Under the pieces are notes generated by a model. That model was not told the origin of the DNA. It ran no database searches and saw only the letters and a list, made by a program, of their open reading frames with translations. Below, piece after piece: positions 34,047 through 41,469 of a DNA stretch of 62,896 nucleotides. Positions within the stretch are counted from its first letter, which is position 1. Each line of letters starts with the position of its first letter. A program made the position numbers and the translations under genes. Source of the DNA: an uncultured Actinomycetes bacterium (lineage in GTDB: Bacteria; Actinomycetota; Thermoleophilia; Miltoncostaeales; Miltoncostaeaceae); contig CAJAPZ010000175.1 in assembly GCA_903943955.1 (NCBI GenBank), positions 1-62,896 on the forward strand. Direction: 5' to 3'.

Positions 34047-34059
34047 CCATTGATGTGCC

Positions 34060-34086
34060 GACGGGCTCCTCTTCGAGGAGCCCGTC
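34060..34086 (+). terminator. Second, strong terminator hairpin after csp
   Basis: GACGGGCTCCTC (34060-34071) and GAGGAGCCCGTC (34075-34086) form a perfect 12-bp stem with a TTC loop, followed by CTCGTTTT. This is the clearest rho-independent terminator on the plus strand. It also shows that a start for the next gene at 34055 is unlikely. Confidence 0.85.
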
Positions 34087-34111
34087 CTCGTTTTCGGGCA
34101 CCATTACGACG

Positions 34112-35032
34112 ATGAGTGCCTCGCCCGACACATCCTCCAACGCCTTCCGCGCACGCCGCTGGGCGGCCGCGCGCGAACGCATGCGGGCCACGGTCATCTG
34201 GACGGTGGTCGGGCTGGCGCTATTCGTGCCCCTGTGCACCTACGCCGTGGCTGAACGCGGGGCCACGTGGATGATCGTCACCGCCATCGGCACCTTCATC
34301 GTCGGGCTCGCATTCGCAGCCCTGTTGGCCTGGCAGGCCGCGGGCAAGCGGGCGTCGTCGCGCATGATCCGCGAGTGGGCCATCGCCAACGGGTGGGCAT
34401 ACTGGGGCCGGGACATGCCGACGGAACCCGCGCCCCAGCCGCACGAGGCGCGGTTCGACGACTTCATGCTTGCCAGCGAGACCTTCCCTGAGGCCACGGG
34501 CCTCCTCCGCAAGGGTGTTCGCCGGTACGTCACCGACGTCATCGCAGGAACGGTTGACGGCGTGCCCGTGCGCATTGCCAACCACACCTATGAGACCGAC
34601 ACCTACGACGGCAAGGGCAACCGCACCACCACCTACACCAACCACGTAGTTGCGCTAGTGCCGCAGGTGCCGGCGGTCACGCCTATGCGCCTGGTGCGCC
34701 GGTCCGCCCTGGGGCGGGCTTTGAAGGGTGCCGATGACCGCATGGCGGGGATCGGCAGCATGAAGGCCATCGACATGGAACGCCACGACTTCAACGAGAC
34801 GTTCTCACTGCGGGTGGCCGACGATGCCGACATGGTGGTGCTCTTCCGGGTCTTTGACCACGTCACGCAGGAGCGCCTGGCGGATGGCAGCGACATCCCC
34901 ACCATTGACCTGATGGAGGCCGAGGGCCCGTGGGTCATGCTGGCCGACGGCGGCACCGTGCGCGGCGACCAACTGACCAGAATCGAGCTGATGATCGCGT
35001 CCATCCGCTGGGCCCGCACCACGCTCGCCTGA
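34112..35032 (+). CDS. Hypothetical protein with two N-terminal membrane helices
   Basis: Function not recognised. From ATG at 34112 there are 306 residues: a basic N-terminus, two membrane helices (about 28-50, ATVIWTVVGLALFVPLCTYAV, and about 54-76) and a large, probably cytoplasmic, soluble part. The latter has motifs NGWAYWGRDMP, YVTDVIAGTVDGVPVRIANHTYETD and FNETFSLRVADDADMVVLF. An earlier ATG at 34055 falls in the csp terminator. No good Shine-Dalgarno precedes 34112, so the start is uncertain. The MFS gene follows after 66 nt. Confidence 0.75.
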   Translation: MSASPDTSSNAFRARRWAAARERMRATVIWTVVGLALFVPLCTYAVAERGATWMIVTAIGTFIVGLAFAALLAWQAAGKRASSRMIREWAIANGWAYWGRDMPTEPAPQPHEARFDDFMLASETFPEATGLLRKGVRRYVTDVIAGTVDGVPVRIANHTYETDTYDGKGNRTTTYTNHVVALVPQVPAVTPMRLVRRSALGRALKGADDRMAGIGSMKAIDMERHDFNETFSLRVADDADMVVLFRVFDHVTQERLADGSDIPTIDLMEAEGPWVMLADGGTVRGDQLTRIELMIASIRWARTTLA

Positions 35033-35098: not shown

Positions 35099-36574
35099 GT
35101 GAGCACGACCGCTGCGACGACGCACGACGAAACGCACTACCGCCGCCGGTGGGCCATTCTGGCCGTGCTCGGCCTGGCGCAGCTGATGGTGGTGTTGGAC
35201 GCCACCATCGTGAACATCGCCCTCCCCTCCGCTCAGTCGGATCTTGGGTTCAGCGACGCCAACCGCCAGTGGATCATCACGGCGTACGCGTTGGCATTCG
35301 GTTCGTTGCTGCTGTTCGGCGGGCGCCTGAGCGACCTTCTCGGACGCAAGCGGGTGTTTATCGGCGGCCTCATCGGCTTCGCCGCGGCGTCGGCTCTTGG
35401 CGGCCTCGCCGAGGACTTCACCGTGCTGGTCACCGCGCGTGCACTGCAGGGTGCCTTCGGTGCGCTCCTCGCACCAGCGGCCCTGTCGCTTCTCACCACC
35501 ACCTTCACGGAGCCCGAGGAGCGCGGCAAGGCCTTTGGCATCTATGGCGCCATCGCCGGTGGAGGAGGAGCGCTCGGCCTGCTGCTCGGCGGGGTGCTCA
35601 CCGAATACCTGTCGTGGCGGTGGTGCCTCTGGGTAAATCTGGTCCTTGCGGTACCGGCGGCCATCGCCGCGGTCGTGCTGCTTGTGCACTCACGCCAGGA
35701 CAAGGTGCACCTTGACCTCCCCGGCACGATCACATCGGTGCTCGGGCTTCTCTCGCTGGTCTATGGCTTCGCAAAGGCTCAGACGGATGGCTGGACCGCA
35801 GGCATCACCATTGGCCTTCTCATCGCGGCGGTGGTGCTGCTCGCCATTTTCGTGATCATCGAGACCCGCGTGAAGCACCCCCTGCTGCCTATGCGGGTGG
35901 TACTCGACCGCAACAGAGGTGGTTCGTACCTGGGCCTCACGCTGGCCTCAATGGCCCTCTTCGGCGTCTTCCTGTTCCTCACGTACTACCTGCAGACCAC
36001 GCTCGGGTACTCGCCCATCAAGACCGGACTCGCCTTCTTGCCCATGATCGGGGCGATTATGGTCACCGCCACCACATCCACGGCGCTCCTGCTGCCCCGG
36101 ATCGGTGCGCGCATTCCCATCACCATCGGGCTGTTCCTTGGGGCCATCGGCATGGTGCTGTTCACCCAGCTGGGGGTCGATACGCCCTACGTCACGCATG
36201 TACTGCCGGGTCTCATCGTGACCGGCCTCGGTCTCGGTCTGGTGTTCGCCATCTCGTTCGAGGTGGGCACGATGGGTGTGGACGCCAACGACGCCGGTGT
36301 GGCCTCGGCTATGGTCAATACCACTCAGCAGATCGGTGGCTCGATCGGCACGGCGCTGCTCAGCACGATCTTCGCCACTGCCGTTGCGTCATTTCTGGTG
36401 GGTACGGGCGACCCCAGCACCCCGGAGGCCCAGGCTCAGGCCGCCGTGCATGGGTATTCGATCGCCTTCTGGTGGTCGGCGGTTATCTTCCTGGTCGCTG
36501 CCATCGCCTGCGGCGCACTGCTCACCAGCGAGGTGGCCGACCACGACCCTGACATCCCGGGGGCGACTGCGTAG
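35099..36574 (+). CDS. MFS drug exporter, DHA2/EmrB-QacA type
   Basis: Proton-driven exporter of 491 residues with about 14 membrane helices. Diagnostic segments are VVLDATIVNIALPSAQ (motif D1), the loop GGRLSDLLGRKRVFIGG (motif A), ARALQGAFGALLAPAALSL and GIYGAIAGGGGALGLLLGG (motif C, antiporter). GTG at 35099 has TGAGGA about 10 nt upstream. The substrate cannot be inferred; no regulator of the TetR or MarR type is adjacent. It probably leads an operon with the CorA-like mini-protein and the esterase. Confidence 0.92.
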   Translation: MSTTAATTHDETHYRRRWAILAVLGLAQLMVVLDATIVNIALPSAQSDLGFSDANRQWIITAYALAFGSLLLFGGRLSDLLGRKRVFIGGLIGFAAASALGGLAEDFTVLVTARALQGAFGALLAPAALSLLTTTFTEPEERGKAFGIYGAIAGGGGALGLLLGGVLTEYLSWRWCLWVNLVLAVPAAIAAVVLLVHSRQDKVHLDLPGTITSVLGLLSLVYGFAKAQTDGWTAGITIGLLIAAVVLLAIFVIIETRVKHPLLPMRVVLDRNRGGSYLGLTLASMALFGVFLFLTYYLQTTLGYSPIKTGLAFLPMIGAIMVTATTSTALLLPRIGARIPITIGLFLGAIGMVLFTQLGVDTPYVTHVLPGLIVTGLGLGLVFAISFEVGTMGVDANDAGVASAMVNTTQQIGGSIGTALLSTIFATAVASFLVGTGDPSTPEAQAQAAVHGYSIAFWWSAVIFLVAAIACGALLTSEVADHDPDIPGATA

Positions 36575-36595
36575 AAATCCCATCGGCGGCCCCGG

Positions 36596-36601
36596 TACGG
36601 T
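36596..36601 (+). promoter_or_regulatory. Possible -10 box (TACGGT) for a leaderless transcript
   Basis: TACGGT ends exactly 6 nt before the GTG of the CorA-like mini-gene, and no Shine-Dalgarno is visible. A -10 box at this distance is the pattern of leaderless actinobacterial transcripts. The alternative is simple read-through from the MFS gene. Confidence 0.3.
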
Positions 36602-36607
36602 CCCGGC

Positions 36608-36793
36608 GTGTCCACCACCATCATCTTCGCATTCACGCTGGTCGGAACGATTTACGGCATGAACTTCGACAACATGCCCGAACTCCACGGGCAGTACGGC
36701 GACCTGTGGGCGCTCTTCCTGATGCTCGTTACTGCTGCGGGTCTCTCCTTCATCTTCAAACGCACGGACTGGCTCTCGTCGCATGAGCGATGA
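36608..36793 (+). CDS. CorA-type C-terminal mini-protein (GMN pore segment only)
   Basis: A 61-residue membrane protein consisting only of what is normally the C-terminus of the Mg2+/Co2+ channel CorA. It has a first helix (TIIFAFTLVGTIYG), the selectivity motif GMN in YGMNFDNMPEL, a short external loop, a second helix (LWALFLMLVTAAGLSFIF) and the terminal RTDWL that matches the KKKWL end of CorA. The large cytoplasmic funnel domain is absent: the MFS stop lies only 33 nt upstream. GTG at 36608 is in frame, and the esterase start overlaps its end by 11 nt, which argues for a kept, translated gene. Whether it forms a pore, modifies another CorA or is a relic is open. Confidence 0.7.
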   Translation: MSTTIIFAFTLVGTIYGMNFDNMPELHGQYGDLWALFLMLVTAAGLSFIFKRTDWLSSHER

Positions 36794-37655
36794 GATGCAG
36801 CGGGCCCCGGCACTGCTACCGGGGATGGTGCAGCGTTATCGCGGTGAGCCCATGCACTGCGACGAAATGCGCGTGGATGATGCGCGGGATGCCCCCGACG
36901 CCATCCGCGATGCCCACACCGTGGTGGACGAGCACATCGCCGGGGTGCACTGCACGTGGATCAATCCGGAGCACCGCGCGAACGGCCTCATCGTCTCCCT
37001 GCACGGCGGGGGATACATCGTGGGGCCCGGCGCTGCGCATTGGGGATGGGTCAGCACCCTCTGCCGCGACACCGGTCAGGCGGGATTGCTCATCAGGTAC
37101 TCGCGTGCCCCGGAGGCCACCTACCCCACGGCACTCAATGAAGTGCTCGCCGTAGTGCGCACCCTCGACGGCTCGTGGCAGCTCATCGGTGACAGCGCCG
37201 GCGGTGGGCTCGGTCTCGCCACGACATTCAGCCTGCGCGACGCTGGCGAAATGGTGCCCACGGCAATGGTGCTCAGCTCACCCTGGCTCGACATCACCAT
37301 GGCCCACCCCGAACAGGCCGCCAACGCGCACATCGACCCGATGATGGGCATCCCTGCCCTCGACCATTACGCACGGGCGTACGCCGGCGCGACAGACCGC
37401 ACGCACCCTCACCTCTCTCCTCTCTACGGCGACCCCACTGGCCTGCCGCCCATGCTCATCACCGTGGGCACCGCGGAGCTCTTCCTATTTGAGACCCGCG
37501 ACTGGAAGGCCAAGTGCGACGCGATGGGTACCTCATGCAAGGTCATCGAGGTGGACGGCGCCATTCACGACTTCGCAATCATGCTGGGCCTCATGCCCGA
37601 GGCCAGCGAGGTGCTCCCCGCGCAGACGGCGTTCCTCGCAGATCACCGGGCCTGA
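36783..37655 (+). CDS. Alpha/beta hydrolase, HSL-type carboxylesterase
   Basis: Cytoplasmic esterase/lipase of the hormone-sensitive-lipase (acetyl-hydrolase) family, 290 residues. HGGGY (74-78) supplies the oxyanion hole and GDSAGGG the nucleophile Ser138. The acid is probably Glu232 (TAELF), and the histidine is His262 in AIHDFAI. ATG at 36783 lies inside the last codons of the CorA-like mini-gene, so the two are probably co-translated. The natural substrate is unknown; adjacency to an exporter could suggest detoxification but is only suggestive. Confidence 0.9.
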   Translation: MSDEMQRAPALLPGMVQRYRGEPMHCDEMRVDDARDAPDAIRDAHTVVDEHIAGVHCTWINPEHRANGLIVSLHGGGYIVGPGAAHWGWVSTLCRDTGQAGLLIRYSRAPEATYPTALNEVLAVVRTLDGSWQLIGDSAGGGLGLATTFSLRDAGEMVPTAMVLSSPWLDITMAHPEQAANAHIDPMMGIPALDHYARAYAGATDRTHPHLSPLYGDPTGLPPMLITVGTAELFLFETRDWKAKCDAMGTSCKVIEVDGAIHDFAIMLGLMPEASEVLPAQTAFLADHRA

Positions 37656-39033: not shown

Positions 39034-39382
39034 GTATTCGGCGTCCTGCCTCAGCGGCGGGTCCGCAGACGTCATTATCTTGGCCCTCGCCGGCTGCGCA
39101 GTGACGCCCGTCTTCCCAAGGACCTTTGTGGTGATGGTCCATTTGCCCTTCGACCGGCGGATGGTGCGCCCTTAGGTGCGCGTGGCCTTTGCGCAGGTGG
39201 CGTATGTCTTCTGCCCACACCATCTCGCAGCGGAAGATGCCGTCAGCGCCCGTCAGCGTGCGAAGCTCGATATTTACGGCGACGAGCTGTTCTGCGTCAT
39301 GCGCCCCGCCGCCTCGTGGGATCGGGCACCGGCCACACGTCAGCCGTGTTCACAACGGGTGTCAGTAGGACACACCGGGGGC
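39034..39382. other. Non-coding gap with possible decayed minus-strand coding sequence
   Basis: About 350 nt with no intact gene. On the minus strand one frame reads CGQKTYATCAKATRT, a stop, then GRTIRRSKGKWTITTKVLG, which resembles the repetitive ends of secreted actinobacterial proteins, but it has stops and no start. I see no promoter or RNA here. Confidence 0.35.
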
Positions 39383-41293
39383 CTACCCCAGGTTGAGGCT
39401 CGCAGAGCGAATCATGAGGTTGTTCATGACCGCGTACCAGATCTCATTGAGCGCGAGCCTGGCGCCTGATTCCTCGCGGGGGGTTCCTCGGAGCGCCCGA
39501 TAGATGCCGGTCGACCACTCTCGCTGCCACACCGGGTAGCTCATGTTTTCTCCATTCCACTGCAGGAACGCCGTCCACTCGGCGATGGTTTGCTCGCCTC
39601 CCTCCACCGCGTTACGCAGGAGTTCGCGCTCGTATGCGCTCTGCGCATCCTTGTCGAAGCCGGCATCGGTGATGGTGGAGTCAGAGAAGCCGTAGGCGTC
39701 ACCGCTCGCCAACGTGGTGCCAAGGACGTAATACGTGGTGGCGTAGGCCGATTGCTGGATGGCCTCCTGCAGCGAGCCGGCCTCGGCCTTGGCGCCCTCG
39801 ACCTCATCGCGAAGGGCGGCGAGGACCTCGTAGGAGCCGGTGCCCCCTCCCGCCGTGCCGGGCGCTTTGGACAGGGCCTCGTAGAGCACCCGGTTGGCAC
39901 CGCCCGCGCGCGCCAGGAACGTGGAGTAGCCGGACATGAAGGCGGTGGCCTGCTCCTCGGGGACAGCCGTCCGTGAACTCGCCGCGCGCACGACCGCGAT
40001 AGCGTCAGGGCCCAGGTGTTCGAGCGCCAGGCGCTCGCCCTCGACGTCCCTGGCGATGTCCGCGAGCTGGGCGATCTGCTTGGCCTTGCCGACACCCACC
40101 ACCGGCTGCTTCAGCGCGGTGCCCGCTGCCTGCAGTACGGCCTGGGCATACACCACCCAACCCATTGCCGACGGCAGGGTGAGCCACTGCTCCACCCGGA
40201 GGCCGGCGGGGTTGGACTGCTGCTGGAACTGCGTGTTGGCCCGCGCAAGCAGGCTGGCGACGTCGCCAGCCAACGCCGTTCGTGCCGCGGCGACGCCCTC
40301 CTCGCGGGCAAGCGTGGTGACGCGAGCCCCCCCGCTGGCGCCGCCGATGCGGTAAAGGGCCTCCACTGCCCAGCCATAGGCCTCTCCCGCCCTGCCCGCG
40401 GCCATGGCTGAACGGGCGCTCCCAAGGTCGGCGGCGATTCCCGCGCGGGCGCGCTGCGGGATGAGGCTGCGATTGCGGACAAACGAGGCCTGCGCCGCCG
40501 CCAGGGTGCGACGGGTGGTGGCCACCGCAACCGTTCGGGCCTCGGGCGACAGGCTGGCCGGGCGCGCCGCAGGCGGCGCGATGGTCTCGCCCGTGAAATC
40601 CCGATACGCCTCGTTGATGTCGTGCACCGTGCGCACCGTCAGGCCGAGGGTACGACCGAGGGCGATGACGTCCACGACCTTCCCGGATGCCGAATCAACC
40701 GACATTCGGTTCCCCACCGGGATGAGGACGAGCGTAAACCCGTCCTTGGCTGCCGCGGCCACCTTCGCGGGCACGAGGCCCACGCGACCGATGGTGCCGT
40801 CGGGGAGGATGGTGCCCGTCATCACCACCTTCGGTCGCACGGTGTCACCGCGGATGGCGGCAATCGTGCCCAGGGTCAGGGCCGCACCACCCGAGGGGCC
40901 ATCAATGGGCCCAGTGATGTCATATCCCAGCGTGAGGGTGGCGGGGTCTGCGCCCGTGTAGAGGGTTGCAAGCGTGGCCGCGCTCGCCGTAGCGGCCAGC
41001 CACTGCGCGCCGGCGCCCTTGGTCGTGATGTCGCCGAGGTTGACTTCAAACGTGGGCTCTCCGGAGGTCTCGGCGAGAATCACCGCAGGCTCGATGCCCG
41101 CGCTGACCTTCCCGAACTCACCGGATGCAGCCCAGAGCACCGGGAATGTGATCTTGGTCCGGGGAATCTGCCACCAGGCTCCGGCCTGCTGCGCCTGCTC
41201 GCAGCCGGACGCCATAAGCACGGTTGCACCGATGGCAACCGCCCACGACGCGACGAAGAGCCGCCAGCGGGCGGGCGGGGAGTAGCGACTCAT
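39383..41293 (-). CDS. Lipid-anchored Lon-type (S16) serine protease
   Basis: A 636-residue extracytoplasmic protein. The N-terminus is a lipoprotein signal (RLFVASWAVAIGATVLMASGC, Cys31). Residues about 45-200 are a Lon proteolytic domain of the COG1750 type. The nucleophile Ser134 lies in GPIDGPSGGAALTLG, VVMTGTILPDGTIGRVG is the family strand pair, and the general base Lys177 lies in VPAKVAAAAKDG. No AAA+ ATPase domain is present. The remaining 430 residues are mostly helical, alanine-rich and unrecognised. ATG at 41293 is the best start; the open frame upstream lacks signal-peptide character. It stands alone, with decayed sequence on both sides. Confidence 0.82.
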   Translation of the reverse strand: MSRYSPPARWRLFVASWAVAIGATVLMASGCEQAQQAGAWWQIPRTKITFPVLWAASGEFGKVSAGIEPAVILAETSGEPTFEVNLGDITTKGAGAQWLAATASAATLATLYTGADPATLTLGYDITGPIDGPSGGAALTLGTIAAIRGDTVRPKVVMTGTILPDGTIGRVGLVPAKVAAAAKDGFTLVLIPVGNRMSVDSASGKVVDVIALGRTLGLTVRTVHDINEAYRDFTGETIAPPAARPASLSPEARTVAVATTRRTLAAAQASFVRNRSLIPQRARAGIAADLGSARSAMAAGRAGEAYGWAVEALYRIGGASGGARVTTLAREEGVAAARTALAGDVASLLARANTQFQQQSNPAGLRVEQWLTLPSAMGWVVYAQAVLQAAGTALKQPVVGVGKAKQIAQLADIARDVEGERLALEHLGPDAIAVVRAASSRTAVPEEQATAFMSGYSTFLARAGGANRVLYEALSKAPGTAGGGTGSYEVLAALRDEVEGAKAEAGSLQEAIQQSAYATTYYVLGTTLASGDAYGFSDSTITDAGFDKDAQSAYERELLRNAVEGGEQTIAEWTAFLQWNGENMSYPVWQREWSTGIYRALRGTPREESGARLALNEIWYAVMNNLMIRSASLNLG

Positions 41294-41469
41294 GGCCCAC
41301 ATTCTAGTGGCGGCCTTCGGTGTGTCCGTGTGGGGCGCAGATGTAGTGACTTCGGCCTGCACACCGCATTCGTCCCCGTGTGGGTGCGAGGAGGTGAGGG
41401 ACGGGGACCATACCCCGCGCCCGGACGTAAGGTTGCGGCGTGCCCCGCCCGAGCCAGTCCATGCATTCC
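41294..41469. other. Intergenic sequence upstream of the Lon-type lipoprotein gene
   Basis: About 175 nt containing the presumed promoter of the Lon-type gene and the out-of-register tail of the pentapeptide remnant. No clear -10/-35 pair or hairpin was found. Confidence 0.4.

Follow-up and report, generated by a model that had tools for sequence, protein, structure and literature searches.

The window, a stretch of 62,896 nucleotides spanning positions 1 to 62,896 of contig CAJAPZ010000175.1, contains on its plus strand at 36608-36793 an open reading frame for 61 amino acids, with a GTG start codon at 36608 and a TGA stop codon at 36791-36793, whose product is MSTTIIFAFTLVGTIYGMNFDNMPELHGQYGDLWALFLMLVTAAGLSFIFKRTDWLSSHER. 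It is flanked upstream by a gene for an MFS transporter (35099-36574, plus strand), which ends 33 nt before it, and downstream by a gene for an alpha/beta-hydrolase (esterase; 36783-37655, plus strand), the ATG of which at 36783 creates an overlap of 11 nt. The only Pfam match of the product is to CorA (PF01544; E = 7.8e-14, score 52 bits, cut-off 27), and since it exceeds the curated cut-off this match is not due to chance. The alignment covers positions 241-292 of the 292 in the profile, that is, only the last 52. Both the overlap with the esterase start and the assignment as a C-terminal fragment of CorA, which had been predicted from the sequence alone, are thereby borne out.

These 52 residues comprise the end of the first transmembrane helix (TM1), the YGMNF loop, the MPEL motif, the second helix (TM2) and the terminal DWL. 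The product therefore has the hallmark of CorA/2-TM-GxN proteins, a GMN motif flanked by a pair of membrane helices at the C-terminus, and lacks the large N-terminal cytoplasmic (funnel) domain that in those proteins is joined via a long TM1. The original prediction of two membrane helices, a GMN motif and a DWL end is correct except that the first helix is shortened, beginning only at a deletion junction at 36619/36620. The funnel domain had also been said to be missing and not upstream, and indeed none was found in another frame between the MFS stop codon and the GTG; a piece of it is nevertheless present in the window, at 39184-39314, as described below.

The origin of the reading frame becomes clear on comparison with other genomes of the genus, the relatives named here all being metagenome assemblies. 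The corA tail is present in 11 of the 20 searched, at 50-100% identity, and the open frame that contains it has a length of 72 in the window and in G002, 114 in G017 and at least 330 in the remaining eight. Two close relatives, G003 and G009, encode an intact CorA of about 332 residues in this very slot, with the MFS gene on one side and the esterase on the other, and in G008 a full-length corA follows the same MFS gene. Alignment to these three genes shows that the sequence GTG TCC ACC ACC of the window is the start of the relatives' corA, and that the sequence ATC ATC TTC resumes after 828 nt (276 codons, numbers 5-280) of the G003 gene, all of which are missing at 36619/36620, where the junction is flanked by imperfect CCNCC microhomology. 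The GTG and the TACGGT box before it are thus corA's own, and the segment holding this putative -10 box and start codon (TACGGTCCCGGCGTG, 36596-36610, plus strand) is identical in all six genomes with the locus. The former corA stop codon TAG at 36776-36778 (plus strand) is TCG in the window genome (G000), in G002 and in G017, and this common change extends the frame to the TGA at 36791-36793, adding SSHER and creating the 11-nt esterase overlap; in G003 the stop codon of the intact corA is located 4 nt before the esterase ATG. The reading frame at 36608-36793 is accordingly an in-frame remnant of 61 codons, made up of the first four codons of corA, its last 52 and five of read-through.

The same 61-residue form, with the same junction, is found in G002 at 90% amino-acid identity. 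The remnant in G017 has 99 codons, nine from the start of the gene and about 90 from the end, and results from a different in-frame deletion of about 699 nt. Aligned against G003, the deletion of G000 and G002 includes the stretch deleted in G017; as the one includes the other, and as the omega of the stem branch is uninformative, the former may have been made either on top of the latter or independently of it.

In the three intact relatives (L034:2609-2638, L035:3602-3633 and L036:1986-2016) a near-perfect inverted repeat of 12-14 bp, CGCCGGGACCGT-GAGT-ACGGTCCCGGCG, reaches as far as the start codon of corA, with a predicted folding energy of -26 to -29 kcal/mol. The truncated genomes, all three of them, have a degenerated left arm (36581-36610 in the window; predicted -10 to -15 kcal/mol). 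The repeat could be a terminator for the MFS gene or an operator. On the other side of the MFS gene, an open reading frame for 325 amino acids without a Pfam match (34055-35032) is 95% identical to its counterpart in G017 and only 59% to those in G002 and G003, despite the adjacent MFS gene being 94-98% identical in all three; judged from these identities, this slot has probably undergone an allele swap by recombination.

The piece of funnel domain referred to above is a stretch of 131 nt at 39184-39314, on the same (plus) strand and 2.4 kb downstream of the first remnant. It corresponds to codons 45-88 of the G003 gene (83% nucleotide identity; 71% to corA of G009), is 99% identical in G002, has a stop codon just upstream in its frame, and originates from within the segment that is absent from the first remnant. 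Pieces of this corA, here called corA-1, are thus scattered over 2.7 kb, and the second piece may derive either from a second copy of corA or from a moved portion of the same gene; the contigs of G003, G009 and G017 stop short of this region. Elsewhere in the genome, on contig C117, there is a full-length second CorA (PF01544, 215 bits, profile positions 3-292), and a search of the genome with PF01544 returned nothing besides this protein and the remnant. Every one of the 20 genomes has the second type of CorA, whereas corA-1 is found in 11 and is absent from nine, which identifies corA-1 as an accessory, dispensable copy.

Selection on the fragment was assessed in several ways. Pairwise dN/dS in the corA fragment among the truncated genomes is 1.85 (G000-G002), 1.69 and 0.89, against 0.15 for the intact pair G003-G009. 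Over the same three truncated genomes the MFS gene is under normal purifying selection, with values of 0.09-0.12 (0.11 for G000-G002); the G000-G002 value is 0.16 for the esterase and 0.09 for a gene at 39383-41362 that encodes a protein of 659 amino acids. A codon branch model written for the present analysis, run with 11 taxa and with 6 taxa, yielded an omega of 0.66-0.70 on the foreground (post-truncation) branches and of 0.02-0.03 on the background of intact relatives. Equality of the two was rejected in likelihood ratio tests (p = 1e-7 with 11 taxa, 5-6e-7 with 6 taxa), and the foreground value did not differ from 1 (p = 0.55-0.60): selection was relaxed after the truncation. With only 52 testable codons, the foreground estimate of about 0.7 has an approximate 95% support range, obtained by fixing omega along a grid, of 0.22-3.1, so that purifying selection on the short protein was not detected and the data are compatible with weak constraint, at an omega above about 0.2.

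Because the deep branches of the model are saturated, simple codon counts were also given weight. Among the three truncated genomes the variable codons of the fragment comprise 10 nonsynonymous and two synonymous. The corresponding counts are five and 11 in the pair G003-G009 (Fisher p = 0.009), and in the MFS gene of the same trio they are 21 and 77 (p = 4e-5); the esterase of the trio, with 10 and eight, most of these changes involving G017, does not differ significantly from the fragment (p = 0.24). Positions that are invariant in the eight intact relatives have been lost: the proline of TM1 is retained in G017 and is leucine in G002 and phenylalanine in the window; the tryptophan after MPELx is glycine in the window and cysteine in G017; and the tyrosine following the loop glycine is aspartate in all three truncated genomes. 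The GMN and MPE motifs are retained in all three.

Short CorA tails were sought throughout the genus, the family, the class (399 genomes) and the phylum (396 genomes), with matches listed to E values of about 1e-4 for the class and 2e-7 for the phylum. Among the matches listed from the 399 class and 396 phylum genomes there was no conserved family of stand-alone short CorA pores, although more distant forms could be missed at these thresholds, and the only homologues of similar length were those of G002 (61 amino acids) and G017 (99 codons), two close sisters that belong to the same clade as the window and share its decay. A lack of homologues of this length elsewhere, together with frameshifts in close relatives, had been named in the original prediction as the mark of a simple deletion relic, and the distribution found agrees with this in substance. 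Six other short tails, lying away from contig ends, were examined and rejected as stand-alone pore genes, each being a relic of another kind: in G284 corA is split over three frames, in G535 it contains a frameshift, and in G409 it is 5'-truncated with an in-frame stop; in G654 only the tail is present, beside an unrelated gene, in G696 the GMN motif has changed to GMK, and in G718 the tail ends after 44 residues. Short hits in G208, G635 and G671, together with one in G009, lie at or near contig ends. The sequences in G654 (L064), G696 (L065) and G718 (L068), all other genomes of the phylum, are independent tail-only remnants of CorA; CorA paralogues have repeatedly been reduced to their tail. 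Searches of the openly accessible literature brought up no description of a naturally occurring CorA without a funnel.

The explanation of these results that we consider very probable is that the reading frame is a pseudogene remnant of corA-1, produced by ordinary gene decay through in-frame deletion. An ancestor would have carried the MFS gene, a full-length corA-1 and the esterase gene one after another. In G000, G002 and G017, which form one clade, corA has lost its stop codon and, through in-frame deletions, internal segments (828 nt in G000 and G002, about 699 nt in G017), so that the start of the gene is now joined to its 3' end. Since then the sequence would have drifted essentially without constraint at the protein level, the other fragment of corA-1 lying as debris 2.4 kb away, and the frame would still be open on account of its short length and the youth of the decay. 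The remnant may still be transcribed from the old corA start, and its translation into the esterase start may passively bring ribosomes to the esterase; the peptide itself most likely does nothing. The word 'relic' in the original prediction is therefore apt, since the orthologues that occupy this slot in G003 and G009 are full length and the reading frame is explained by an in-frame deletion, while the added suggestion that the relic is 'kept by coupling' describes something possible that is not needed. There is a counterpoint: both deletions are in frame, for which the chance is about 1/9, and no stop codon interrupts the frame in three species, as either coupling or function would require.

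It is on this point that a rather unlikely alternative draws, according to which the amino acids of the remnant are irrelevant and selection maintains its open frame as a leader that is translated: ribosomes beginning at the former corA GTG would terminate inside the esterase start and re-initiate, setting the right level of esterase. Neither a Shine-Dalgarno-like nor a -10-like sequence is seen immediately in front of the ATG of the esterase, a gene that is itself conserved. Each of the three truncated species has an open frame that overlaps this gene, the G003 stop falls 4 nt short of the ATG, and near-neutral amino acids combined with a kept frame are what such a leader would show. Survival of the frame is, however, also likely by chance, a 61-codon frame having stayed free of stop codons through 12 neutral substitutions in 71% of simulation runs, and five further genomes of the genus were found to have related esterases (52-55% identity) with no corA preceding them. 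Were the coupling real, the frame of a dead gene would be maintained solely to deliver ribosomes to the next gene.

The original prediction had also raised the prospect of a mini-channel or a CorA modulator, and neither is supported by the data. That the remnant should be a functional mini-protein, whether a channel without a funnel or a modulatory subunit that co-assembles with the cell's other CorA, is very improbable: two membrane segments and YGMNF are retained, the short version occurs in two species at 90% identity and an intact CorA partner exists in the genome, but dN/dS is near neutral, TM1 is cut short and has lost its conserved proline, the invariant tryptophan and tyrosine are gone, the remnants of sister genomes are unequal in length (61 and 99 codons), and beyond this clade the matches listed from the class and phylum genomes included no conserved short version. 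The variant in which such a small membrane protein, co-assembling with or modulating intact CorA, changes its amino acids rapidly through adaptation and not through decay is to be thought extremely improbable. Virtually no credence can be given to a truncated gene created by misjoined reads; most of the genomes, all of which are assemblies, come from metagenomes, but the same junction recurs in G002, assembled independently and 90% identical in amino acids, and G017 has a related but different deletion. A short, open, Pfam-positive reading frame that resembles a minimal channel can, then, be a recent gene remnant, and the two are told apart by whether the slot holds an intact orthologue in relatives and by dN/dS on the truncated branches.

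Channels of the CorA family are pentamers with large cytoplasmic domains that are thought to be regulatory (PMC6972854), and TM1, about 11 nm long, alone links the pore to the sensor (PMC6927688). With the CorA/2-TM-GxN channels (PF01544), of which CorA of T. maritima is the type, the remnant shares the last 52 residues; unlike full-length CorA it lacks the cytoplasmic funnel domain and most of TM1, and it is evolving without clear constraint. Small membrane proteins that modulate magnesium transport, such as MgtS, are conserved genes. The remnant resembles them in size and membrane character alone, with no sequence relation seen, and is a recent truncation. The closer likeness is to partially deleted bacterial pseudogenes, with which it has in common an intact orthologue at the locus, internal deletions, loss of the stop codon, relaxed dN/dS and scattered debris; it differs from them in that its frame is still open, and automatic annotation may consequently call it a gene.
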